Assembly: GCA_007136405.1 (NCBI GenBank)
Contig: SLHA01000021.1
Span: 1 to 64,000 of the forward strand
Reading direction: 5' to 3'
Origin: Candidatus Latescibacterota bacterium
Lineage (GTDB): Bacteria; Latescibacterota; UBA2968; UBA8231
DNA: 64,000 nucleotides
Below are positions 8,244 to 64,000 of this stretch, one piece after another. The position numbers and the translations under genes were made by a program. The notes under the pieces are model-generated. The model searched no databases, had not been told where the DNA came from, and saw only the letters and a program-made list of their open reading frames with translations. The first letter of the stretch is position 1, and the number at the start of each line of letters is the position of its first letter.

Positions 8244-9458
8244 CTAACCGGTAATGGGACAGTCCACCAGCGCCACAGCCTGGGCCGCAATACCTTCTTC
8301 GCGGCCCACAAACCCCAGGTGTTCGGTGGTGGTAGCCTTGACCGATACCCGGTCGGTGGGCATCTGCAACGTTCCGGACAGCACCTCCACCATGGCGGGC
8401 AGATGGCAGGAGAGTCTGGGACGCTGAGCGGTCAGAATGGCATCCACATTGACGATACGCGCGCCGCGCGCCGCCAGGCGCTCCCATGTCTTCCGCAACA
8501 GTTCGATACTGCGAATACCCGCATAACGCTGATCCGTGTCCGGAAACAGGCGACCGATGTCGCCCTCTCCCACGGCCCCCAGCAGAGCGTCGATCACTGC
8601 GTGGGTGAGCACGTCAGCATCGGAATGCCCGGCCAGGCCGCGCTCGAAGGGAATGCTGATTCCTCCCAACACCAGAGGCCGGTCTGGCACCAGGGCATGG
8701 ACATCGTATCCCTGTCCGATACGCAGCGCCGTTGCTGCCATTCCGTGCTCCCTGTTCAGCTGGAATTCGGCCCACTCCAGGTCTTCCCGGGTGGTGATTT
8801 TCAGATTGCAGGCATCGCCGGGCACCAGTTGCACCGGACGTCCCATCTGTTCGACCAGCATCGCATCGTCGGTAGCAATGGGCCTGTGGCCGGCAGATTC
8901 ATGCGCCGCCAGCAGCCAATCCCGACGGAAGGCCTGCGGTGTCTGTGCCTTCCAGAGGCGGGAGCGATCCAGGGTGCAACGGATTACCCGTCCGTCGCTT
9001 TGTTTGATGGTTTCGGTGACCGGCAGCGCGGCAACCGCCGCACCGTGTAGCCGGGCGGCGTGCGCCACCCGCTCTACCAGCGCCGGCGTGACAAACGGAC
9101 GCACGGCGTCGTGCACGACGATGATATGATCACTGGATTGCGTCTGCCGCATTCCAGCGCGCACCGAAGCCCAGCGCTCGCACCCGCCAGGCACGATAAC
9201 CCGCAACTTGCTGAAGCGTTCCCGGCTGACTCCTGCCCGGGTGCACAGTTGCATGTCCTCAGGGCGCACGACAACGATGATGGCGCCGATGGCCGGGCAC
9301 GACTGGAGACGGTCAAGAGTATGCACGATCACCGCCTGCCCCAGCAGCGGCAGATATTGCTTGGGCTGGGATGCCGCCATGCGGCTGCCCGTTCCCCCGG
9401 CGGGAACGATGGCGGCGGCATTCGCGGCGGCATTCGATGGTTGAGAGGTTTCTTTCAC
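8244..9458 (-). CDS. ispDF: Bifunctional IspD/IspF (MEP isoprenoid pathway)
   Basis: A 404-aa fusion. Residues about 14-240 are IspD (MEP cytidylyltransferase): AIVPAGGTGSRMAASQPKQY, VHDAVRPFV, AQTPQAFRRDWL and TDDAMLVE. Residues about 246-404 are IspF (MECDP synthase): RIGQGYDVHALVPDRPLVLG, the zinc-binding DVH and HSDADVLTHAVIDALLGAV, the GRLFPDTD loop and KATTTEHLGFVGREEGI. It carries out two non-consecutive steps of isoprenoid precursor synthesis; ispE is not in the window. The start is a GTG at 9458 overlapping the queA stop as GTGA, which indicates translational coupling. Such fusions are known in several proteobacterial and other lineages. Confidence 0.97.
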   Translation of the reverse strand: MKETSQPSNAAANAAAIVPAGGTGSRMAASQPKQYLPLLGQAVIVHTLDRLQSCPAIGAIIVVVRPEDMQLCTRAGVSRERFSKLRVIVPGGCERWASVRAGMRQTQSSDHIIVVHDAVRPFVTPALVERVAHAARLHGAAVAALPVTETIKQSDGRVIRCTLDRSRLWKAQTPQAFRRDWLLAAHESAGHRPIATDDAMLVEQMGRPVQLVPGDACNLKITTREDLEWAEFQLNREHGMAATALRIGQGYDVHALVPDRPLVLGGISIPFERGLAGHSDADVLTHAVIDALLGAVGEGDIGRLFPDTDQRYAGIRSIELLRKTWERLAARGARIVNVDAILTAQRPRLSCHLPAMVEVLSGTLQMPTDRVSVKATTTEHLGFVGREEGIAAQAVALVDCPITG

Positions 9459-53084: not shown

Positions 53085-53837
53085 TCAGATCTCTTCCACT
53101 TTCCTGCGCTCCAGCCAACCGCGCAGCCCGTTGGGGAGCCGGATCAAAAGCCAGTCTTCCTGCTGTCGATCGATGCGCACCTTGGTGCCCTCATGCACCA
53201 GGAAAACCGGTGTCTGGCGCTCGTCCGGCCCGCTCCGGGCGCGCGCCTGCGGGTATATCACGATGGCCTCGGTTACCGTGTAATGATGGTACATGCGCGC
53301 CGACAGGACGACCGTGTTGACCAGTAAAAGGCTGCTGCACACGATGACCCCCGCCAGCCACCCCGAAGTCATCTGTCTGCCCCGGCGCAGCCAGACCAAT
53401 CCCAGCAGAAACAGGGCCAGCAACAGGGCACTGAAAGCCGCGCTGAGTTCATCGAGCGTCGGATGATGCAAGACTCTCGCCATGGCGGTATAGAAACGAT
53501 GCCCTGGCTCTGGATCTCGATCCCGTTTGATCGTCTTGGCGAAACGCAGATTGTGAAGAATGTCCGGGTCTCTGGGTTCAAGCCGGCGCGCCCGTTCGTA
53601 CCATAGAATGGCCTTGCCGAGTTCTCCGGATTTGAACCAGGCGTTGCCCAGGTTGTAGAACAGCCAGGCGTCCTCCATGCCTCCGGCGACGACCTCCAAA
53701 TACCGGTCGCGGGCCGCCTGGTATTCCCCCGCTGCGTATAGACTGTTGGCATGGTTGTACATGCTGAAGGCTTCCGAAGCGCCGGCGTCGGCACCGGCGC
53801 AAAACGACAGCAACAGTCCGAAAACCCCCGCCAGCAT
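53085..53837 (-). CDS. batE: BatE: TPR and SH3-domain membrane protein
   Basis: A 250-aa product. An N-terminal signal (MLAGVFGLLLSFCAGADA) is followed by a two-repeat TPR (YNHANSLYAAGEYQAARDRY, WLFYNLGNAWFKSGELGKAI, LWYERARRLEPRDPDILHNL), two transmembrane helices (about 135-155 and 165-185), and a C-terminal SH3-like domain (ARSGPDERQTPVFLVHEGTK, WLLIRLPNGLRGWLERRKVE). This order matches BatE of the 'aerotolerance' cluster. Its ATG overlaps the batD stop by one base (TGATG). Confidence 0.88.
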   Translation of the reverse strand: MLAGVFGLLLSFCAGADAGASEAFSMYNHANSLYAAGEYQAARDRYLEVVAGGMEDAWLFYNLGNAWFKSGELGKAILWYERARRLEPRDPDILHNLRFAKTIKRDRDPEPGHRFYTAMARVLHHPTLDELSAAFSALLLALFLLGLVWLRRGRQMTSGWLAGVIVCSSLLLVNTVVLSARMYHHYTVTEAIVIYPQARARSGPDERQTPVFLVHEGTKVRIDRQQEDWLLIRLPNGLRGWLERRKVEEI

Positions 53838-55672
53838 CAGATGACCTTCTCCAGTTGCGCAATCAGTCGTTTGGTCCGGTCCAGTGTCTGCGTCATTTCC
53901 GGCACGGTGGCGCTACCGCCGGAAAACCGGGCATAGTCGCACAGGTCCAGCAGCTCGCGCAGGGTGCGGCTCAGCTCTCCGGATACGCCCCGCTCGTGCA
54001 ATACCTGAACGCAGCGATCCTGCGTCAGCCCGGCCGCCGCCAGACTCAGCCGGTGCCCGACGAACGCCAGAACGGCCCGCTGGACCTCGGCATGGAAGCC
54101 CACGTTGTCTCCCGCAGCCAGGCGCTGGCGGGCTTGCCGAAGCCTGCGTTCGGCATCTCCCCGGGCCCGTCGGCGCCGCGCATAGGCGCCATCCGCCTGC
54201 ATACGCTGCTGGTGGCGCTGGTACAGCAGGGAACCGGCAAAACCCAGCGGCAACAGCGCCTGCGCCAACCAGAAACCAGGACGTGCATGCAGCCGCAGAC
54301 CGCCGCCCAGACGGTGTGCATCCGGCTTGATGTAGCGGATATCCGTTCCCAACGTCTCTATGCCACGGCCGATCCGCGGAGGACCGGAACGCTGGTCAGC
54401 CAGTTCCGCACCGTTGCTGTGGCTGCGCAGGCGCACAGGAGGCGATGTGAGCACGCGGTACCGGCCTCGATCCGGATCGAAGTAGGCGAACTGCACCGGG
54501 TCCAGGGCAAACTCTCCGGCTACCGCTGGTATCAGTATGAACTCGTAGGTTCGGCTTCCGCCGATCTTGCCGTTGGCCACGTGCCTGTCCGCCTGGACCT
54601 CGGGACCGAACCGCCGAATCTCCGGCGGCACCTGCACTGCGGGCGGCACGATGGCATCCGGGTTGCCCGTGCCCTCGATGGTGACGCGCAGGCTTACGGG
54701 ATCACCGACGGTTACTTCGGCAGGGTGCGACTCTACCTGCATGGAATAGCTGCCGACAGCCCCGGAAAAGCCGTCTGGTCGTCCCTTTTCCGGTAGACCC
54801 GATACCTCCAGGTGGATGGAGTCGCTCCGCACCACTACGGTCCGGGTAGCCCGTCCGAAGAACGCGTCATCGAAGACCCCATCCAGAGGCGAACCACGTC
54901 TCCCGGGACGCACCGGGACATCGCAGGATATCACCAGGGGATCGATCACATGGATACCGGCCCTGGTAGGGAACAAGGCAACCTGGCGCAGTGGCGCGAC
55001 GTCGAACGCCACGCCATCGATCACCTCACGCCGGCTCTGCAGTGACTGGGCGACGAACACTTCCTCCATCCAGAAACCAGAAAACGAAGGAACCTGGCGG
55101 AAACCTACGTTCTGCAATCCGGTTCGGAAGCACAGATCGTATTCGACGCTGATCTGCTGGCCGACGTACGCCTGCAGCCGGCTGGCTCTGGCGCGTACGA
55201 ACAAGGTATCGGCGAGACCGGTGGAACGGCGATCCGTCTCCTCATCCTGTGCCATGGTCTGGGGCGCATCGCTGGCTGCCACATCTACCACCAGGGCCTT
55301 GGTCTGGTACGTCTGCCCCTGGAGCTCCAGACTGGCCGGACCGATGAGGATCTTGCCGGTACGCCGCGGGTGCAGCGTATAGGTCAGTTCACGGATGTAG
55401 GTGAGTTCCTGCTGGAAGTTGACGATGCTGACGTTGGTGCTGGTACGTATCGAGGGTCCCTCGACCTGGAACTCCGACAGATCGATCTGCGGTGCCGGCA
55501 TGTGCTGCACCCGCTCAGTCGAACGAATGCTCAGGGTGAGTCTGAGGGGTTCCGACTGACGTATACGGGTTCTGTCCACCCAGGCCTCGAAATCGACATC
55601 GAGGCCGAGAACCGGACCGGGAATACCAAGACAAGTCGTCAATCCGAGGAAAATCACGATCCAGAGCGGCAT
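53837..55672 (-). CDS. batD: BatD: large periplasmic protein of the Bat operon
   Basis: The ATG at 55672, 4 bases after batC, gives 611 aa; a GTG at 55699 inside batC is an alternative. A signal peptide (MPLWIVIFLGLTTCLG) is followed by repeated Ig-like/BatD domains: FEAWVDRTRIRQSEPLRLTL, YIRELTYTLHPRRTGKILIG, YVGQQISVEYDLCFRTG and SYSMQVESHPAEVTVGDPVS. A transmembrane helix (FWLAQALLPLGFAGSLLY, about residue 480) and a cytoplasmic helical tail follow. It is thought to assemble with the VWA proteins BatA/BatB. Confidence 0.92.
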   Translation of the reverse strand: MPLWIVIFLGLTTCLGIPGPVLGLDVDFEAWVDRTRIRQSEPLRLTLSIRSTERVQHMPAPQIDLSEFQVEGPSIRTSTNVSIVNFQQELTYIRELTYTLHPRRTGKILIGPASLELQGQTYQTKALVVDVAASDAPQTMAQDEETDRRSTGLADTLFVRARASRLQAYVGQQISVEYDLCFRTGLQNVGFRQVPSFSGFWMEEVFVAQSLQSRREVIDGVAFDVAPLRQVALFPTRAGIHVIDPLVISCDVPVRPGRRGSPLDGVFDDAFFGRATRTVVVRSDSIHLEVSGLPEKGRPDGFSGAVGSYSMQVESHPAEVTVGDPVSLRVTIEGTGNPDAIVPPAVQVPPEIRRFGPEVQADRHVANGKIGGSRTYEFILIPAVAGEFALDPVQFAYFDPDRGRYRVLTSPPVRLRSHSNGAELADQRSGPPRIGRGIETLGTDIRYIKPDAHRLGGGLRLHARPGFWLAQALLPLGFAGSLLYQRHQQRMQADGAYARRRRARGDAERRLRQARQRLAAGDNVGFHAEVQRAVLAFVGHRLSLAAAGLTQDRCVQVLHERGVSGELSRTLRELLDLCDYARFSGGSATVPEMTQTLDRTKRLIAQLEKVI

Positions 55673-55676
55673 GGCA

Positions 55677-56441
55677 CTACCAGTCCTTCCCGCCGTCACC
55701 GCCCCCAGGCCTCCAGCGGTGACGCTGCGCCTGCCTGTCGCGGTCGATCAGGGCATCGAGCAGCTTCTCAGCGTCTTCTCTGTCGATCCCTGACCGCGTT
55801 TCCGGCACGGGTGGTTCCGCGTGGCCGTCCTTTGGAGTCTCCCGGTTGTCGTCATCCGATTCCTCCGGTGGCGGTTCGTGGACGGAATCCGGTTGCTGTT
55901 GGTCCTGACCTGTCTGTGGCGCCGCCGCTCCATCCGGTCCTTGCTCCCTGTCCCCCCCGGTGTCCTGGCCGTTCGTATCTTGTTGCTGTTGCTGTTGCTG
56001 TTGCTGGTCCAACAGTCGCAGAGCCAGCTCCAGGTTTGCTCTGGCGTCATCATCAGCGTCATCTGCCCGCAAAGCCGCACGGTAGGCCTCGACTGCTTCA
56101 TCCAGTCTATGCTGGGTCAGGTACACGGTACCCATGTTGTACAGCGCTGCGGCACGCAGTTCGGGCGCTGCCGCGGCAAGTTCGAACTCGCGTAACGCAT
56201 TTTCGGCGTCACCAAGTCTGAACAACACATCACCCAGGTTGAAATGCAGCTCGGGAGAGCCTGGTTTTTCCACCTGCGCCTCCCGGTACAGCTGCAAGGC
56301 TGCCTCGAACTGGCCCTTTTCGTACAATCTCAACGCTTCTTCAGCGCGCCTGGCAGCTGGATCGCCCACCGTGGCTCCCAAAAGCAGGACAGCCGATGCC
56401 GTCAGCGTCACGCCGCGCCATGACAACCATGAGTTGTTCAT
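55677..56441 (-). CDS. batC: BatC: TPR protein with poly-Gln and acidic tail
   Basis: The ATG at 56441 overlaps the batB stop as ATGA, giving 254 aa. A signal or anchor helix (LTASAVLLLGATVG) is followed by three TPRs (about 27-140: AEEALRLYEKGQFEAALQLY, LHFNLGDVLFRLGDAENALR, ALYNMGTVYLTQHRLDEAVE). Then come a run of nine Gln, an acidic Gln/Asp/Pro-rich region and a final EDAEKLLDALIDRDRQAQ helix, which is the characteristic BatC end. Confidence 0.88.
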   Translation of the reverse strand: MNNSWLSWRGVTLTASAVLLLGATVGDPAARRAEEALRLYEKGQFEAALQLYREAQVEKPGSPELHFNLGDVLFRLGDAENALREFELAAAAPELRAAALYNMGTVYLTQHRLDEAVEAYRAALRADDADDDARANLELALRLLDQQQQQQQQQDTNGQDTGGDREQGPDGAAAPQTGQDQQQPDSVHEPPPEESDDDNRETPKDGHAEPPVPETRSGIDREDAEKLLDALIDRDRQAQRHRWRPGGGDGGKDW

Positions 56442-57463
56442 GCGAATCGGCCTCGCCATTCCCGGGTTCGAGTGCGCCCGTCTCCCATCAGGACTTCGAC
56501 GAACAGACAGAGCAACGCCAGCGCCAACGGGATCTGATAGCGTTCGGTATACTCGGTCAACGGATGCGCGCCGAGGTCCTTCTTGTCCATGCTGTTCACC
56601 TGTTCGGCCAGCGCCGATATCTCGGCGCCCGCAAGCGTACTGCGGTAATACTCCCCATAGGCCGCCCGGGTCATCTCCTGCAATGTCGACTCGTCCAGTC
56701 TGGTTCTGACGGGGTTACCCGAAGCATCGCGATGGAAGCTGATGCCGCCATCCTCGCCATGCCTGGGAATCAATCCGCCGGCAGTCGAACCCAGTCCGAC
56801 GGCATAGAGCCGCACTCCGGCCGCAGCGGCAGATTGGGCCGCACCGACCGGATCATCTGTATGGCTCTCACCATCGGTGAACAGCACGATAGCCTTGTGC
56901 TGCCGATCGTCAGGATCAAAGCACTGCATCGCCACCCGGACCGCAGCTTCCACGGCCGTTCCCTGCACGGGAAAGGTCTCCGGATCCACCGTATCCAGAA
57001 ACATCCTTACGGCAGCGTGATCCAAAGTCAGCGGGCACTGCACGGCTGCCTTTCCGGCGAACAGCACCAACCCCACCCTGTGTCCTTCCAGTGCCTCCAG
57101 CAGGGCTCGTATCTGGAACAGGGCGCGGCCTATCCGGCTGGGCCGGACGTCCTCGGCCAGCATGCTGCGGGAAACGTCCAGCGCGATGACCACATCCACT
57201 CCCCGCTGTTCTACCACCGCCGGCCGGACACCGTATTGCGGACGCGTGAGTGCCAAAGCCAGAAACGACAGAGTCGACATCAGCAGTACCGCCCTGAATA
57301 CCTGCCTGCCGGTACTGCTGCCTGCCACGAGGCGCCGGGACATGGACCATGGGGCGAAACGAGCCAGCGCCCGCCGTCTGGCCACGAAACCGGCTGCCAG
57401 CAGGCCGCCGGCCAGCGGTATCAGCAGCAGCAACCAGAAGTTGACGGGCTCATCGAAAAGCAT
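56438..57463 (-). CDS. batB: BatB: membrane-anchored von Willebrand A protein
   Basis: A 341-aa product with two N-terminal transmembrane helices, a VWA domain with a complete MIDAS (VVIALDVSRSMLAEDVRPSR, then GTAVEAAV and LFTDGESHTDD) and a C-terminal helix (IPLALALLCLFVEVLMG). The TRPQYG motif before the VWA domain is typical of Bat proteins. It follows batA by 9 bases and overlaps batC by 4. Confidence 0.93.
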   Translation of the reverse strand: MLFDEPVNFWLLLLIPLAGGLLAAGFVARRRALARFAPWSMSRRLVAGSSTGRQVFRAVLLMSTLSFLALALTRPQYGVRPAVVEQRGVDVVIALDVSRSMLAEDVRPSRIGRALFQIRALLEALEGHRVGLVLFAGKAAVQCPLTLDHAAVRMFLDTVDPETFPVQGTAVEAAVRVAMQCFDPDDRQHKAIVLFTDGESHTDDPVGAAQSAAAAGVRLYAVGLGSTAGGLIPRHGEDGGISFHRDASGNPVRTRLDESTLQEMTRAAYGEYYRSTLAGAEISALAEQVNSMDKKDLGAHPLTEYTERYQIPLALALLCLFVEVLMGDGRTRTREWRGRFA

Positions 57464-57472
57464 GGCGGTTTC

Positions 57473-58477
57473 TCAGGGTATACGGCGAAACCGGGTATTG
57501 GCCAGCACCATTTCCAGCACGAGCATGAACAGGCCAGGCCATAGCAGATAGGCGAAACGCTCGGCGTAGTCGACGTGGACACTGCTGGTGACCTCAGTGG
57601 TCTCCAGTTGGTCGATCTCCTGGTAGACCGCTTCCAGGGTCTTCGCGCACACCGCCCTGAAATAGCGGCCACCGGTGCGCACCGCGACTTCCTCGAGCAG
57701 CTCTTCGTCGATTTCCACCTGGACGGTCCTGTAGCGCGTGCCAAAGATCCCCTGTACAGGCTGGCGTATCGTGCCTTCGCTGCCCACACCAACGGTGTAG
57801 ATGCGTATCCCAACAGCAGCAGCCACATCGGCCGCGGTGAGTGGCTCGATCTCGCCCGCATTGTTCACCCCGTCCGTAAGCAGGATGATAATCCTGCTGT
57901 CTCCTTCAGCGTCACGCAAACGGTTGCAGGCATTGATCAGAGCCATGCCGATGGCCGTGCCATCCCAGTCCCGATCGGCGATACGCACGTCAGCCAGGGT
58001 CCGGCGCAGCGCCTGGTAGTCGAGCGTCAACGGACAATGGGTAAAACTCTTGCCGGCGAAAACGACCATACCTATGCGGTCCCCGTTGCGTCCGGAGATG
58101 AAGTGGTCGATGACTTCCTTGGCGACTTGCAGGCGAGTCTTCTCGCCGCCGGCCAGATCATTGGCATTCATGCTGGATGATACATCCACCGCCAGAACGA
58201 TGTCCACACCTTCCGCCGACAGATGACGAACCTCCCGACCGAACTGAGGCCGTGCCATGGCGACGACAAGGCAAATCAGAGCGCCAAGCCGGAGTACGAT
58301 GAGGACGTGCCGAAACCGGGCACCCCATCGGACACCGGTCAGCTTGAAAACATGCAGGCTCGAATACCGTATGGAGCCGCAGCCACGACGTTCGACCAGG
58401 CGGTAACGGTACAGAACGTACGGCACCAGCAACAGTAGAACCAGCCATTCCGGCGTAGCGAATCGCCAGGACGCCAT
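57473..58477 (-). CDS. batA: BatA: membrane-anchored von Willebrand A protein
   Basis: The ATG at 58477 gives 334 aa. N-terminal helices (TPEWLVLLLLVPYVLYRY and VLIVLRLGALICLVVAMARP) precede a VWA domain with MIDAS DIVLAVDVSSSMNANDL, TAIGMALINACNRL and IILLTDGVNNAGEIEP; YTVGVGSEGTIRQP and a C-terminal helix (LLWPGLFMLVLEMVLANTRF) follow. It is a paralogue of the adjacent batB. Confidence 0.94.
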   Translation of the reverse strand: MASWRFATPEWLVLLLLVPYVLYRYRLVERRGCGSIRYSSLHVFKLTGVRWGARFRHVLIVLRLGALICLVVAMARPQFGREVRHLSAEGVDIVLAVDVSSSMNANDLAGGEKTRLQVAKEVIDHFISGRNGDRIGMVVFAGKSFTHCPLTLDYQALRRTLADVRIADRDWDGTAIGMALINACNRLRDAEGDSRIIILLTDGVNNAGEIEPLTAADVAAAVGIRIYTVGVGSEGTIRQPVQGIFGTRYRTVQVEIDEELLEEVAVRTGGRYFRAVCAKTLEAVYQEIDQLETTEVTSSVHVDYAERFAYLLWPGLFMLVLEMVLANTRFRRIP

Positions 58478-58481
58478 GCCT

Positions 58482-59495
58482 TCACGATCCTCCGACTCTG
58501 GTTTCCGGCCTGGCATCCGCAGCCGCCGGGCTCAGACCATCTGTCGTATCGCCCACAGCAGGCAGAGGCGAGACCATCTCTGCATCTATACGCTCAAGCA
58601 AGGAGATTCCTGCTTGTGGCGCCTGGCGCGCCGCAGGCAGTTCCGGCCGCATCCGGGCGAATTTCACCAGGTCCGCTGTGGACAGGAAATGCCGTATCCC
58701 GTCGATCAGCCCGGACGGGTCCTCCGGTTTCCGTGTGTGCAGTTGTGTGACGATCTCTTGCGTCGTCAGTTCCATGGCATCGATACCGAGCCGATGCTGC
58801 AGGAATGCGCGCAGGTTGTCGGCCAGCAGCGAGTAGTACTCCTTGTACCTGCCGCTTTCCAGCAGGCCCATATCAGCAATGCGGACGAATTCGGCGGCGT
58901 GATCCACGGGTGCGACAAACGTCGCAGTAGCCGCTGTCACCTCCCGGCGGCTCATCTTCCGGTGGATCAGTACGAGTACCGTGCCGAGTAGCGCCAGGCC
59001 GCCGCCGGCCACCCACCACAACGGCCAACCACCGGGTACCGGCACCGGTGGCTTGATATCGCGTGGCTCCAGGTCACCCTCCTTACGCACACCCAGCACC
59101 TCGACCGTAAGCGGGTGAGTACTGCGCACCACCGTGTCCCCAGCCGCGGTAACGAAGGAAATGGGAAGCGCCGCAAGGTTCTGCTCGCCCAGTCCCAAAA
59201 GCTGTATGCGGGCATCGAAGCGCCACACCTGTTCGCCCGCGACGCTCCCGGGAAGGCGTGTTTCGCTGATCTCCGGTTCCAGCCCGTGCAGCCAACTGTG
59301 TATGTCGGGCCGTTCAGGCTTTTGCCCGTCGCCGTAGTTCAACTGCAGGCGCACGGTGGCACGATCGCCCAGGGCAACCACATGGGTATCCAGTTGTGCT
59401 GTTACCGCCGGCAGTTCCGCCCCCGCTGATCCCGCTGCCAGCGAGAACACGCCGGCGAGAATCCATGACAGGAACCGGGACTGCTTCTGTGTCAT
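58482..59495 (-). CDS. DUF4381/BatD-like membrane protein of the Bat operon
   Basis: The ATG at 59495 overlaps the stop of the DUF4340 gene by one base (TGATG), giving 337 aa; the long open frame upstream is non-coding. Order: signal peptide (FLSWILAGVFSLAAGSAGA), a beta-rich periplasmic domain (VTAQLDTHVVALGDRATVRL), a transmembrane helix (WWVAGGGLALLGTVLVLIH) and a cytoplasmic helical domain (AAEFVRIADMGLLESGRYKE, YYSLLADNLRAFLQHRLGID). The layout matches the small BatD-like or DUF4381 proteins found before batA. Its function is unknown. Confidence 0.8.
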   Translation of the reverse strand: MTQKQSRFLSWILAGVFSLAAGSAGAELPAVTAQLDTHVVALGDRATVRLQLNYGDGQKPERPDIHSWLHGLEPEISETRLPGSVAGEQVWRFDARIQLLGLGEQNLAALPISFVTAAGDTVVRSTHPLTVEVLGVRKEGDLEPRDIKPPVPVPGGWPLWWVAGGGLALLGTVLVLIHRKMSRREVTAATATFVAPVDHAAEFVRIADMGLLESGRYKEYYSLLADNLRAFLQHRLGIDAMELTTQEIVTQLHTRKPEDPSGLIDGIRHFLSTADLVKFARMRPELPAARQAPQAGISLLERIDAEMVSPLPAVGDTTDGLSPAAADARPETRVGGS

Positions 59496-60919
59496 CACGG
59501 CTGAACCGAAGAGTAGTCCACGTCTGCACCGGTGGGCGAATCCGGGATGTCCGCCAGATCTTCCAGTATCAGATCCAGATCGGCGAAGTCCGCCAGATCG
59601 ATTCGGTACACCGTTGGATCCGTATCTATGCTTGCATAGACCGCCACGTCCGGATCGCCGGAAAAACGCACCGTGACGGCCACATCGTCCGTACCGCTGA
59701 GCATGTAACTCAACAGGAATGGGGCTTCCCGGTAACCAGGATCCGCAGGCTCCGCGAAACCATGGGCCTCGAGGCTCGTCAGGTCGCTCAGGAGACTCTC
59801 GATCTCCCACGACCGTACCGGCAAAGGCTCTGGCAGCTCCACGGACCAGACGCCATCGCTGTCCCGCACCAGGGCGACCGTGGGTTCGTCAGGCCGCTCT
59901 ATGGCGACGCGCGATATGGCCGTACGCTGGATCTGCAGCACGGTACGGTCGCGCAGATCCTTCAGCGACTGATCCAGATCACTCACCAGCAGATTGTCCA
60001 CCTCGAAAACGCGCTCCGAACTCATATCGCGGGCGAAATACCGTCCAGAAGGCGACTCACTACCGATACGCAGTCGTTTTTCAGCCCGCTCGGGTCCACT
60101 CAGCAACACGACTTCCAACGTGTGAGCCGGCTCCAATCCCAATGCCGTCAGGGCCTCGGGACTGATTTCATCCGGTTCGGCCACATAAGCCGCCACTTCG
60201 CCGTCCTGCAGCCTGCTGAGGATCCTGCGAACCGCCTCCGCATCCGCCCTGCCTTGTATGGGGCTGGTGATCTGCCAGGTCTCGTCATCCTGGTTGCGCA
60301 TAAGGGTGATGGTCTGCTCAGGACGGAGCAAACGGATCTCGGCCACCTGCCGCCGCTCGAACGGTAAAACGCGCCGGTCACGCAGATCGAATACGCCCTT
60401 GTTCAGATTGTCGAAACGCCAGGCCGGCACCACGAAGACCTCGGGATTGTCACCGTGGTGCTGCACGTACGTGTGGCTCTCGGTCGGTGAATCGTCACCA
60501 AAGGCCAGCGTGTCCAGGGTGCCATCATCCAGTTCCAGAGCAACGCGTAGTCGCGGCCTGTCCAGACCGTAACGCTCCAGATGGGCAGTGTTCCGGGTTA
60601 TTTCGGCACTGTCTGCAACCACACGTTCACGCTCGGATTCGCGCAGGGTGCGGAGGTATCGACTCAAGGCCTGCTGGTCGGCCCGATCGATCACCGGGTG
60701 CAGCAGGCGCCATTGATCGTCTATCCTCTCCAGGACCGCCACCGTATCACCGCGTTCGACAGTCAGCCGTTTCGCCGCCTCGGAGGGAAACGACAGCAGT
60801 TGCTTGGCCAGTCGGGCTTCTTCGGCCCGCCGCTCGCCTCCCCGGATTTCGTGCCAGTAGACAAAGGCGAGCAACGCCAGAAACACGCCCCCGATCATCA
60901 GGTTGGTACGGAGATTCAT
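59495..60919 (-). CDS. DUF4340-domain membrane-anchored protein
   Basis: A 474-aa protein with one N-terminal anchor (LMIGGVFLALLAFVYWHEI) and a long periplasmic region of DUF4340 type: KRLTVERGDTVAVLERIDDQ, WRLLHPVIDRADQQALSRYL, RVALELDDGTLDTLAFGDDS, then a repeat of the pattern (AEIRLLRPEQTITLMRNQDD, WQITSPIQGRADAEAVRRIL). DUF4340 proteins usually follow GldG-type genes, as here (16 bases). The role is unknown; a partner of the ABC/GldG complex is inferred. Confidence 0.88.
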   Translation of the reverse strand: MNLRTNLMIGGVFLALLAFVYWHEIRGGERRAEEARLAKQLLSFPSEAAKRLTVERGDTVAVLERIDDQWRLLHPVIDRADQQALSRYLRTLRESERERVVADSAEITRNTAHLERYGLDRPRLRVALELDDGTLDTLAFGDDSPTESHTYVQHHGDNPEVFVVPAWRFDNLNKGVFDLRDRRVLPFERRQVAEIRLLRPEQTITLMRNQDDETWQITSPIQGRADAEAVRRILSRLQDGEVAAYVAEPDEISPEALTALGLEPAHTLEVVLLSGPERAEKRLRIGSESPSGRYFARDMSSERVFEVDNLLVSDLDQSLKDLRDRTVLQIQRTAISRVAIERPDEPTVALVRDSDGVWSVELPEPLPVRSWEIESLLSDLTSLEAHGFAEPADPGYREAPFLLSYMLSGTDDVAVTVRFSGDPDVAVYASIDTDPTVYRIDLADFADLDLILEDLADIPDSPTGADVDYSSVQP

Positions 60920-60935
60920 GACCTATATCCCTTGC

Positions 60936-63900
60936 TCACTCGTCGAAAGTCGCACGGATCCATGCCAGAATGGCACTGTTGACCAGAAATACGGCGGCGT
61001 ATACCAGCTTGATCGTGTCGTGTGGTATGAACCAGAAACCGGCCCCTGCACTGAGCAGAGCCAGTGTCAGCGCCGGAGCCCGGACCCACCGGGCGCGCCG
61101 GTGGATACCATAGGCCACGGCTACGCTGATCATGGCAAGGACCAACAGGGTCTCTCCCGCGAGCCAGCTGGCTTCACTCTTGCGCACGACGCCGGTCACG
61201 AACAGGAAGCAGGCATTGGCGGCAAAACTGTACAGCAGCCAACTGATCGCGCCTTCCGCGTACGTACCGCACCCACGCCGCAGAACGACCACCAGTCCGG
61301 ACAGCGCTACGGCAAACGGCAGGATGAATACCGAGATCCACAGGATCACCTGGCCGGATGTGCCGACCAGGTTGATGGGGTTGTGCCGAGGTTGACGCGC
61401 GGGAATCTGGAGACGCTCCTCGTCCTCGCTCAGCCAGGAGAGGCTTCCCATCACCAGCTGGCCGTTGGCCTGCTGGCCGAAATACTGGTTGCTGGCAAAA
61501 TCAGCGTCACCGAACACGACCAGCCTGGCCCGTTGTCCGGGAGCCAGCGTCGAATCCGCATCGGCCTCGGCCGCGACGGCCAGGGACACCGGCCCCTGGA
61601 TATCCACTTCGGGATCGAACGAAACCTCGCCGCCGCCATCGCCGATGATCGGTGACAGATCGCTCTCCGCCCAGCTGCTCGGATGGGTTTGCGCCAACCG
61701 GACCACCTGTGGATTGCGGCTCCGGTCAGGGCCGGGTGACACCGAGCGGGCCAGCGGGAAAAAGCTCATGACCCCGCGGCCGATCCGTTCGGTGACCGGA
61801 TGTTCACCGTAGTCGAGCACCACAGGGACGGACACATCAGCCCCTATCATCTGTCCGAGACCACTCAGGTCGACCACGAAGTCATCACCGACAGCAATGC
61901 CGTATTCGGACAGCAGGGATTCAAGACCGGTTTCCGTTGCCGGTTGCAGCAGTATCAACGCGTGCCCGCCCCGGTCCAGGTGGTCTCGAACCGCGTCGAG
62001 TTCAGCGGCGGAAAAGGGCGTTCTGGGCGCCACCACCGCCAGCACATCGTGCCGCGGATCCAACTCGTCCACTCCGAGGGCAAAGTGGTCGACCACTTCC
62101 AGGTTCATGTCCCGCAGCCGGCCCCGCAGAATACTGTAGCCCGTCCCATCCAACTGGTTCAGCTGACCCTCGCCGTGGCCCGTGGTAAAACAGATGCGCT
62201 GGTCCTGAGCGTAGAGTGCCCGCCGCAGCGCATTGGTCAGGGCTTCCTCCGACTGCTCGGTGATGCGCTCTGTGCGGACAACCCCGGCGTCCTCCACTTC
62301 GATGATCGAAGTCCCTGCCTGGCGAATGTCATACTGCTCGACCAGCAATGCGTTGCGTTGGGGATCGACAAACTCGAAGTCCAGATTGCGCGCGTGGTAT
62401 CGGTACTCGGCCAGCAGATCCCGAAATCGTCTGCCGGCAAATTCACTGATGAAAGCCCTGACCTGCACGGACTGGCCGGTGTGTTTCAGTTCGTCCAGCA
62501 CCTCGACGGTCTGCGAATCCAGAGTGAACAACTTTTCAGCCGTCAGATCGATCCGATGGTGGTACCGTCCGGCCAGGAAGTTGACGGCGGCCACGGCGGC
62601 CAGCGTCAGGATCACACCCGCACCAGCCGTTCCCAGATCCGCGAAACGCCAGTTTCCCTTGCGGGTTACGACCAGCAAGCCGGCCAGCATAACGGTCAGG
62701 GGCATGAAGACCACGGTGATCCAGAATACCCAGCGTGCCTGGTTCGCGGTCAGGGAGATGGGGTTGTGGCCGGCCTGGCGGGGACGGATGGAGATCAGCC
62801 CCTCATCTTCCACCAGCCAGCTCGTCGCGTTCAGAGCCAGATCGCCGTTGCCCTGATAACCGAAATACTGGTCCGTGGCGAAATTGGCGTCACCGAAAAC
62901 GACCAGGCGAGCCCGAGCCCCGTCCGGTTCATGCAGCGCTTCGACCGCAACAGCGATCGGCACGGGGCCGGGGCGGTCCTCCCCTTCGTCCATGGTGACC
63001 GTGCGCTGGCCGTCTGCCGCCAGTACGCTGAGGTCCGTCTCCGCCCAGCTGTGCTGGCTGGTGTACACCAGCTCGACGCCGTCCAGCCCATCGCGACCCT
63101 CGGGCTCGAAACTGACCGAGCGGGCCAGGCGGAAAAAGGTCATCACACCGTGATGATTGCGGGTGATCGGATGCTCGCCGTACGAGGCGGCGATCGGCGT
63201 GGTGTAGTCCAGACCGAACAGGGATCCAATGCCGCTGGTGTCGATGACAAAGTCATCGCCCAGGATGATGCCGTATTCCGCCAGCAGCTCCTCCAGACCG
63301 GTAGGATGGCCGGGATCCAGCATGGCAAGCAGGGCTCCGCCGCGTTCCAGGTAACGACGTATGGCGTCGATTTCGTCGTCGAAAAAACGGGTGCGTGGAC
63401 CGGCGATGATCAACAGCGAGCAATCAGCAGGAACCGTGCCCTCCCGGGCCAGGAGCAGTGTATCTTCCAGGACATAGTCGATCTCCTGCAGTCGCTCCCT
63501 GAGCTGGCTCAAACTGCGTTGCTGCGGCCCGGTACCCACTTCTCCATGGCCGGCGGTCAGGTAGGCCTTCTCCTGCCGGTCCCGTATCACCCGCAGCATG
63601 GCGTTGGTGACATCTCTCTCTTCGAGCGTGGTCACCTGCTGTTCCCTGCTGCCGGACCGCACCACCAGGGTGTTGTACTGCGTGATGCCCTCCTGCCGGG
63701 CTCGTTCCGGAGCCCGATCAGGATCGATGATCTCATAGGAAAACCGCGGGCTGCGCACAGCGTATCCACGCAGCAGCAACTCGGCCTGATCGCTCTCTCC
63801 GGCACGCATGAAAGCCAGCACCTCGACGTCCCGTTCCAGACCACGCAGGGTCTGCACGGTCAGCCCGGAGAGGCTGTGCAGGCGACCTTCGGTCAAATCG

Positions 63901-64000
63901 ATGCGGTGCGGATACCGGTCGGCCAGGAAATTGACCATAACCACGATACCCAGCACCATGATGGCTCCCCAGAATGCATTGAGCCAGCGTCCGTAGTAGC
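60936..64000 (-). CDS. Tandem-duplicated GldG-type (ABC_transp_aux) membrane protein, 5' end cut by window
   Basis: The frame is open to the window edge: before the first in-window ATG (63959) it already reads YYGRWLNAFWGAI, the usual GldG start, so the true N-terminus lies outside. From that ATG, 1,007 residues contain two full GldG-like units. Unit 1 (1-430): VNFLADRYPHRIDLTEGRLH, YLTAGHGE, GDDFVIDTSGIGSLFG, SYGEHPITRNHHGVMTFFRL, FGDANFATDQYFG, C-terminal helix. Unit 2 (445-900): VNFLAGRYHHRIDLTAEKLF, FTTGHGEGQL, GDDFVVDLSGLGQMIG, DYGEHPVTERIGRGVMSFFP, FGDADFASNQYFG. Three more helices end the chain. GldG partners with an ABC ATPase/permease (gldA/gldF), expected beyond the window. Confidence 0.9.
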   Translation of the reverse strand, partial: YYGRWLNAFWGAIMVLGIVVMVNFLADRYPHRIDLTEGRLHSLSGLTVQTLRGLERDVEVLAFMRAGESDQAELLLRGYAVRSPRFSYEIIDPDRAPERARQEGITQYNTLVVRSGSREQQVTTLEERDVTNAMLRVIRDRQEKAYLTAGHGEVGTGPQQRSLSQLRERLQEIDYVLEDTLLLAREGTVPADCSLLIIAGPRTRFFDDEIDAIRRYLERGGALLAMLDPGHPTGLEELLAEYGIILGDDFVIDTSGIGSLFGLDYTTPIAASYGEHPITRNHHGVMTFFRLARSVSFEPEGRDGLDGVELVYTSQHSWAETDLSVLAADGQRTVTMDEGEDRPGPVPIAVAVEALHEPDGARARLVVFGDANFATDQYFGYQGNGDLALNATSWLVEDEGLISIRPRQAGHNPISLTANQARWVFWITVVFMPLTVMLAGLLVVTRKGNWRFADLGTAGAGVILTLAAVAAVNFLAGRYHHRIDLTAEKLFTLDSQTVEVLDELKHTGQSVQVRAFISEFAGRRFRDLLAEYRYHARNLDFEFVDPQRNALLVEQYDIRQAGTSIIEVEDAGVVRTERITEQSEEALTNALRRALYAQDQRICFTTGHGEGQLNQLDGTGYSILRGRLRDMNLEVVDHFALGVDELDPRHDVLAVVAPRTPFSAAELDAVRDHLDRGGHALILLQPATETGLESLLSEYGIAVGDDFVVDLSGLGQMIGADVSVPVVLDYGEHPVTERIGRGVMSFFPLARSVSPGPDRSRNPQVVRLAQTHPSSWAESDLSPIIGDGGGEVSFDPEVDIQGPVSLAVAAEADADSTLAPGQRARLVVFGDADFASNQYFGQQANGQLVMGSLSWLSEDEERLQIPARQPRHNPINLVGTSGQVILWISVFILPFAVALSGLVVVLRRGCGTYAEGAISWLLYSFAANACFLFVTGVVRKSEASWLAGETLLVLAMISVAVAYGIHRRARWVRAPALTLALLSAGAGFWFIPHDTIKLVYAAVFLVNSAILAWIRATFDE

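Follow-up and report, generated by a model that had tools for sequence, protein, structure and literature searches.

A GldA-GldF-GldG-DUF4340 module embedded in the MoxR-Bat operon of Latescibacterota and, at a different site, of Calditrichota

The 64,000-nucleotide stretch analysed here (the window; positions 1 to 64,000 of contig SLHA01000021.1 from a Candidatus Latescibacterota bacterium, assembly GCA_007136405.1) ends inside a gene cluster in which an ABC transporter module of the GldA-GldF-GldG type, followed by a DUF4340 gene, is embedded in a MoxR-Bat operon. The cluster comprises 12 genes, all on the minus strand, that read from high to low coordinates MoxR-DUF58-GldA-GldF-GldG(tandem)-DUF4340-orfX-BatA-BatB-BatC-BatD-BatE. 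The Gld part lies within the Bat operon, between DUF58 and orfX, and does not adjoin it; the window edge (64000) falls within the cluster, the rest of which continues along the 122,103-base contig. An earlier note, made from the letters of the window, had covered eight of the 12 genes. All eight were found where it placed them, on the minus strand, and the gldA, gldF, DUF58 and moxR genes that it suggested looking for beyond the window all lie within the next 4 kb. The linkage of Gld and Bat genes is real, old and recurrent, and it is not obligatory. It is best described as a recurrent joining of two known modules, that is, a new combination and no new protein system; the note's term "undescribed system" was thus too strong, since every part comes from a known family and only the combination appears undescribed.

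The arrangement is conserved across the phylum. Named relatives reached through GldF point to Candidatus Latescibacterota, some of them carrying the label Gemmatimonadetes in NCBI. In a sample of 64 Latescibacterota genomes from ten families, BatD is present in 54 and DUF4340 in all 64, and a hand tally, verified on fetched genome regions, finds the two modules linked in 51 of the 54 genomes that carry BatD. In 40 of these, BatD lies no more than about 9 kb from DUF4340 on the same contig; the remaining 11 show the link to orfX/BatA or MoxR/DUF58, at the end of a contig or following a split. Linkage at about 9 kb in a 5 Mb genome would be expected by chance in an estimated ~0.4% of cases per genome. 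Families f1 and f4 share the identical 12-gene order, and f2, f3, f5, f7 and f10 show it in near-identical form or as far as their contigs reach; it is kept although the identity of GldF drops to about 49%. Order conserved across a phylum rules out chance adjacency, and its presence in many independent genomes, including the single-contig cases G018 and G063, likewise rules out an assembly artefact. The three exceptions are G034 (locus L049), where MoxR-DUF58-orfX-BatA run together with Gld absent from between; G012 (L061, L219), where DUF4340 is followed directly by BatE and BatD sits on another short contig, which is either a true rearrangement or an assembly error; and G022, which was left unclassed. 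Families f6, f8 and f9 have no BatD, and there the Gld-DUF4340 module stands alone (L213, L214, L215, L218).

The same joining is found in a second phylum at another site. Among 40 Calditrichota genomes, reached via locus L092, the order is orfX, then GldA-F-G-DUF4340, then BatA, as opposed to DUF58, Gld, orfX in Latescibacterota, and the modules are linked in about 26 of the 40 by hand tally. Bat and DUF4340 are both present and unlinked in seven (G099, G100, G109-G113), four have Bat and no detected DUF4340 (G088, G089, G101, G108), and the other three were left unclassed. In a tree of GldA and GldF, the embedded modules form two separate clades, one for Latescibacterota (support 91/98) and one for Calditrichota (100/100), and the Calditrichota modules group with the solo module of genome G065 and then with Acidobacteriota. 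A constraint that unites all embedded modules in a single clade costs 26.5 log-likelihood units, and a single origin is disfavoured by the approximately unbiased (AU) test (p = 0.016). The GldG tree is similar except that a long-branch pair from f7 falls outside the Latescibacterota group. We therefore favour two recruitments of the Gld module into the Bat operon. A single ancient fusion stays conceivable because the two arrangements differ only in the side of Gld on which orfX lies; such a fusion could have been followed by a move of orfX and by the subsequent release or transfer of solo copies, a less likely course of events.

It is equally informative to consider where the halves occur apart. 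GldA-F-G-DUF4340 is a solo four-gene operon in sampled loci of Acidobacteriota, Nitrospirota, Nitrospinota, Aminicenantota, Methylomirabilota, Desulfobacterota and others, in a survey limited to the phyla of the loci retrieved, which do not include, for example, Bacteroidota, Gemmatimonadota or Zixibacteria. Bat operons without Gld were found at five Calditrichota loci and in G034 of the Latescibacterota, and in the six-genome phylum of G065 both modules are present with no linkage seen. The earlier note had named independent phylogenetic occurrence as an argument against one complex joining Gld to Bat, and such occurrence is indeed partly the case; what holds of its proposal is the single cluster, in which the linkage is not obligatory, since each half occurs alone. 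In two Calditrichota, the Gld-less Bat cluster also includes a gene whose product may be an outer-membrane beta-barrel and has an acidic linker (L190:7178-8068, L193:10883-11806).

By every sequence feature examined, the host cluster is a genuine MoxR-Bat operon: MoxR and DUF58 at its head, VWA proteins BatA and BatB, a TPR protein BatC, BatD, and a TPR/SH3 protein BatE. BatA combines an aerotolerance N-terminal domain with a VWA domain bearing a metal-ion-dependent adhesion site (MIDAS), its top NCBIfam match being BatA of Leptospira, and BatB is a membrane-anchored VWA protein with the MIDAS motif DxSxS. That motif is kept in 15/15 aligned relatives of BatA, 15/15 of BatB and 12/13 of DUF58; the Walker motifs of MoxR and GldA and the ABC signature of GldA are likewise intact in nearly all aligned relatives. 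Judged by a rough count of hydropathy and charge, the VWA domains of BatA and BatB would lie outside the cytosol. BatD has a signal peptide, tandem BatD (DUF11-like) domains and a helical C-terminal part, and no solved structural relative of it was found. The BatE-like protein, which has a signal peptide, TPR units, two transmembrane helices and a C-terminal bacterial SH3 domain, is the terminal gene of the cluster in relatives too.

The gene between DUF4340 and BatA, orfX, has no Pfam match in the window, although relatives at the same position match PF13584 (BatD) just over the cut-off and DUF4381 weakly. Its AlphaFold model (mean pLDDT 78) contains a signal peptide, one immunoglobulin-like (Ig-like) sandwich, one transmembrane helix and a cytosolic helical bundle, in a domain arrangement that is unsure at a pTM of only 0.39. 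A fold search of the PDB returned Ig-like domains as best matches, generic ones only, and orfX resembles Leptospira family LB_053 weakly (E 0.005). A short BatD paralogue is the best reading, and it replaces the label "DUF4381-like" that the earlier note gave to orfX. Another gene weakly similar to orfX/BatD lies directly before MoxR in Calditrichota and G121 (L182:16861-17838, L200:6891-7889).

The inserted module has the gene order of a GldAFG transporter: an ABC ATPase, an ABC-2 permease and an ABC_transp_aux protein. The GldA, GldF and GldG equivalogs are the best curated matches, yet their bit scores lie below the cut-offs (318.7 against 402.6, 164.3 against 288.5 and 111.9 against 389.9, respectively), so these are not to be called gliding genes. 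GldG consists of two complete GIFT/ABC_transp_aux units, with 183 of 442 residues identical between the halves. Its GIFT domains match IFT52 structures, and it also matches DUF4350 (5.7e-13). In the GldG tree, the N halves of family f1 form one clade and the C halves another, indicating that GldG was duplicated once, at the base of that family. The tandem form is accordingly no hallmark of the Gld-Bat linkage, as other families carry a single GldG at the same place. A second tandem GldG-like protein (1116 residues) with its own GldA/GldF is encoded elsewhere in the window's genome (L143, G000:C41:34000-53000), and there are more paralogous GldA-F-G sets in G034 and G029 (L145, L146); the paralogue sets of all three genomes fall outside the embedded clade. 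DUF4340 is modelled (mean pLDDT 93) with one N-terminal transmembrane helix and three repeated domains predicted to lie outside, and neither sequence search nor fold search found a solved relative.

The cluster is compact (Table 1). Overlaps of 1 base join BatE to BatD and DUF4340 to orfX, BatC and BatB overlap by 4 bases if BatC starts at the ATG at 56441, and gaps of 4-16 bases lie at BatD/BatC, BatB/BatA, BatA/orfX and DUF4340/GldG, in agreement with the overlaps of 1-4 bases and short gaps noted earlier. The widest gaps are 148 bases (GldA-DUF58) and 72 bases (DUF58-MoxR), all other junctions overlapping or measuring at most 16 bases. Promoter-like and terminator-like consensus matches in the cluster are no commoner than in shuffles. 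A promoter and terminator separating Gld from Bat, which the note had named as an argument against its proposal, thus do not stand out; the division into two operons was set aside, although this result need not mean a single transcript.

Table 1. Genes of the cluster, from low to high coordinates (window numbering unless marked as contig)
Gene	Coordinates	Strand	Evidence or remark
BatE	53085..53837	-	Pfam TPR_11 5e-11, SH3_3 1.5e-6
BatD	53837..55699 (alternative ATG start 55672)	-	PF13584 E 1.1e-28, two stretches
BatC, TPR protein	55677..56459 (alternative ATG start 56441)	-	Pfam TPR_11 3.7e-13
BatB	56438..57463	-	VWA_2 7.6e-19
BatA	57473..58477	-	VWA 1e-18; BatA domain (PF07584) 9.2e-10
orfX, short BatD paralogue (best reading)	58482..59495	-	AlphaFold model; PF13584/DUF4381 matches of relatives
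DUF4340	59495..60919	-	PF14238 E 1e-48
Tandem GldG	60936..64000, on to contig 64166 or 64199	-	PF09822 E 4.4e-50, two stretches
GldF, ABC-2 permease	contig 64168-64962	-	past window edge
GldA, ABC ATPase	contig 64946-65935	-	past window edge
DUF58	contig 66084-66983	-	DUF58 match 8e-81
MoxR AAA+ ATPase	contig 67056 to about 68060-68225	-	AAA_3 (PF07726) 2e-63

Some further genes accompany the cluster. Directly upstream of MoxR, on the same strand (L003:8180-8686 and 8779-9099; contig 68180-69099), lie genes for a 168-residue TPR (YfiO-like) lipoprotein and an FmdB-type zinc-ribbon protein, which may belong to the same unit. Family f7 has a gene for a protein of ~250 residues between DUF58 and GldA (L151:14236-14997, L153:14721-15512, L155:16395-17162), and the L151 copy, when searched, had no Pfam or NCBIfam match.

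What might such an assembly do? As the most likely reading, though with somewhat less than even confidence, we propose that the 12 genes specify a single, functionally coupled machine of the inner membrane for the maturation or assembly of envelope proteins. On the cytosolic side, the targets of the MoxR AAA+ ring would be the helical tails that BatD and orfX expose there, reached by way of DUF58, a soluble VWA adaptor. On the opposite side of the membrane, BatA and BatB would contribute their VWA/MIDAS domains, BatD and orfX their Ig-like domains, GldG its two GIFT domains and DUF4340 its rod. GldA would hydrolyse ATP and GldF would relay the movement to GldG and DUF4340, both membrane-anchored with large domains predicted outside, so that these parts would constitute a second motor driving the envelope side, with BatC and BatE as scaffolds. 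The likeliest substrate would be an envelope or outer-membrane lipoprotein or a surface protein that requires ATP-driven release or folding. These assignments of physical contact, substrate and direction of work are proposals, as are the details of topology. The more specific version is that the Gld ABC module and MoxR-Bat make up a single envelope machine with two motors, an AAA+ ring and an ABC ATPase, and that each of the two phyla assembled it independently; we hold this possibility with more doubt.

In favour of a coupled machine we count the conserved gene order, the embedding at another site in a second phylum, the two-clade tree and the intact MIDAS, Walker and ABC signature motifs. 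There are also precedents: F. johnsoniae mutants of gldA, gldF and gldG show instability of the lipoprotein GldJ (PMC9870892), NorQ/NorD and similar MoxR/VWA pairs use MIDAS to remodel a target in the membrane (PMC9976466), and a complex for secretion or membrane remodelling was predicted in 2015 for an archaeal operon type that encodes a DUF4350 (GldG-like) protein together with a MoxR-type ATPase and vWA/Ig proteins (PMC5898192). In addition, a TPR lipoprotein with weak SurA-like similarity follows DUF58 in f10, Calditrichota and the G065 genome (L148:11207-12175, L181:5409-6416, L176:10964-11914), a neighbour that fits a role in folding or assembly. Several points weigh on the other side. 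Each half is found without the other, so that neither needs the other for its basic function; the orientation of the VWA and GIFT domains is drawn from the rough count mentioned above; no substrate gene within the operon marks the target; and the phenotypes seen in Flavobacterium may not transfer to proteins that score under the NCBIfam cut-offs for true GldA, GldF and GldG.

The strongest rival to a coupled machine, somewhat less likely in our estimate, is that these are merely co-regulated neighbours, separate envelope machines whose genes merged because they are needed under the same conditions, with no shared complex. The solo occurrence of each module in many genomes would agree with this, as would the unlinked coexistence of both in the phylum of G065; against it, the Gld genes are inserted within the Bat operon and not added at one end, the insertion site differs between the two phyla, and nearly all Bat-carrying Latescibacterota preserve the order. 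It is clearly less probable that the cluster is a machine for the maturation of metal cofactors or metalloproteins, an idea suggested by the resemblance of both motors to metal-loading systems: NorQ/NorD is the mechanistic model for MoxR-VWA pairs, and NosF, of the NosDFY copper maturation ABC system, is among the closest stand-alone bacterial ABC ATPases when GldA is matched to solved structures. The top-ranking structures in that comparison are nevertheless lipid-moving ABCA proteins, the cluster contains no metalloenzyme gene, and neither GldG nor DUF4340 showed a metal-binding feature. Least probable is a gliding or type IX secretion accessory that carried Bat genes along, for while the three ABC genes have GldA, GldF and GldG as best curated matches, their scores are well under the cut-offs, the cluster yielded no gld or spr secretion gene, and the same four-gene module stands alone in Acidobacteriota, Nitrospirota and Desulfobacterota, which are not known to have type IX secretion. 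Some type IX connection may still exist, given that 60 of the 64 Latescibacterota genomes encode SprA-type (SprA_N) proteins, members of the type IX translocon family; these are mostly ~2000 residues long, occur also in families without Bat, and are fragmentary in the window's genome (G000:C2:1-1371).

Comparison with known systems places the combination more precisely. The Bat operon with MoxR and DUF58 described from Bacteroides and Leptospira (PMC3557215) likewise gathers MoxR, the VWA proteins BatA and BatB, a TPR protein and BatD in one cluster, but here a four-gene ABC module is inserted inside it. The GldA-GldF-GldG transporter of gliding Bacteroidota (TIGR03522, TIGR03518, TIGR03521) has the same A-F-G subunits, whereas here the scores are below cut-off, DUF4340 follows, GldG is tandem (in the window's family) and the linkage is to Bat, not to gliding genes. 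The archaeal system of arCOG01314 (DUF4350, GldG-like) also combines a MoxR-type ATPase with vWA, Ig-like and GldG-like/DUF4350 proteins (PMC5898192), and the present GldG, with its DUF4350 match, is likewise linked to MoxR and vWA genes; the likeness is one of domain content, and the archaeal system as described has no ABC ATPase/permease pair, DUF4340 or Bat set and is itself only predicted. NorQ/NorD, RavA/ViaA and other MoxR-VWA pairs similarly couple a MoxR-class AAA+ protein to a cytosolic VWA partner, but the present cluster has an ABC transporter in addition, and its VWA proteins number three, of which two are membrane-anchored. A search of open-access papers for GldG with DUF4340, DUF58 or Bat brought up none that treats this linkage in bacteria.

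Bat proteins (aerotolerance, stress) and GldA, GldF and GldG (gliding, GldJ stability) each have phenotypes and no agreed molecular job. The repeated insertion of one operon into the other is genetic evidence that their products act on the same thing, and it points to specific protein pairs, namely GldG or DUF4340 with BatA, BatB, BatD or orfX. This suggests that two widespread and poorly understood envelope machines cooperate, and a dual-motor machine, if true, would assign both gene sets to a common task.

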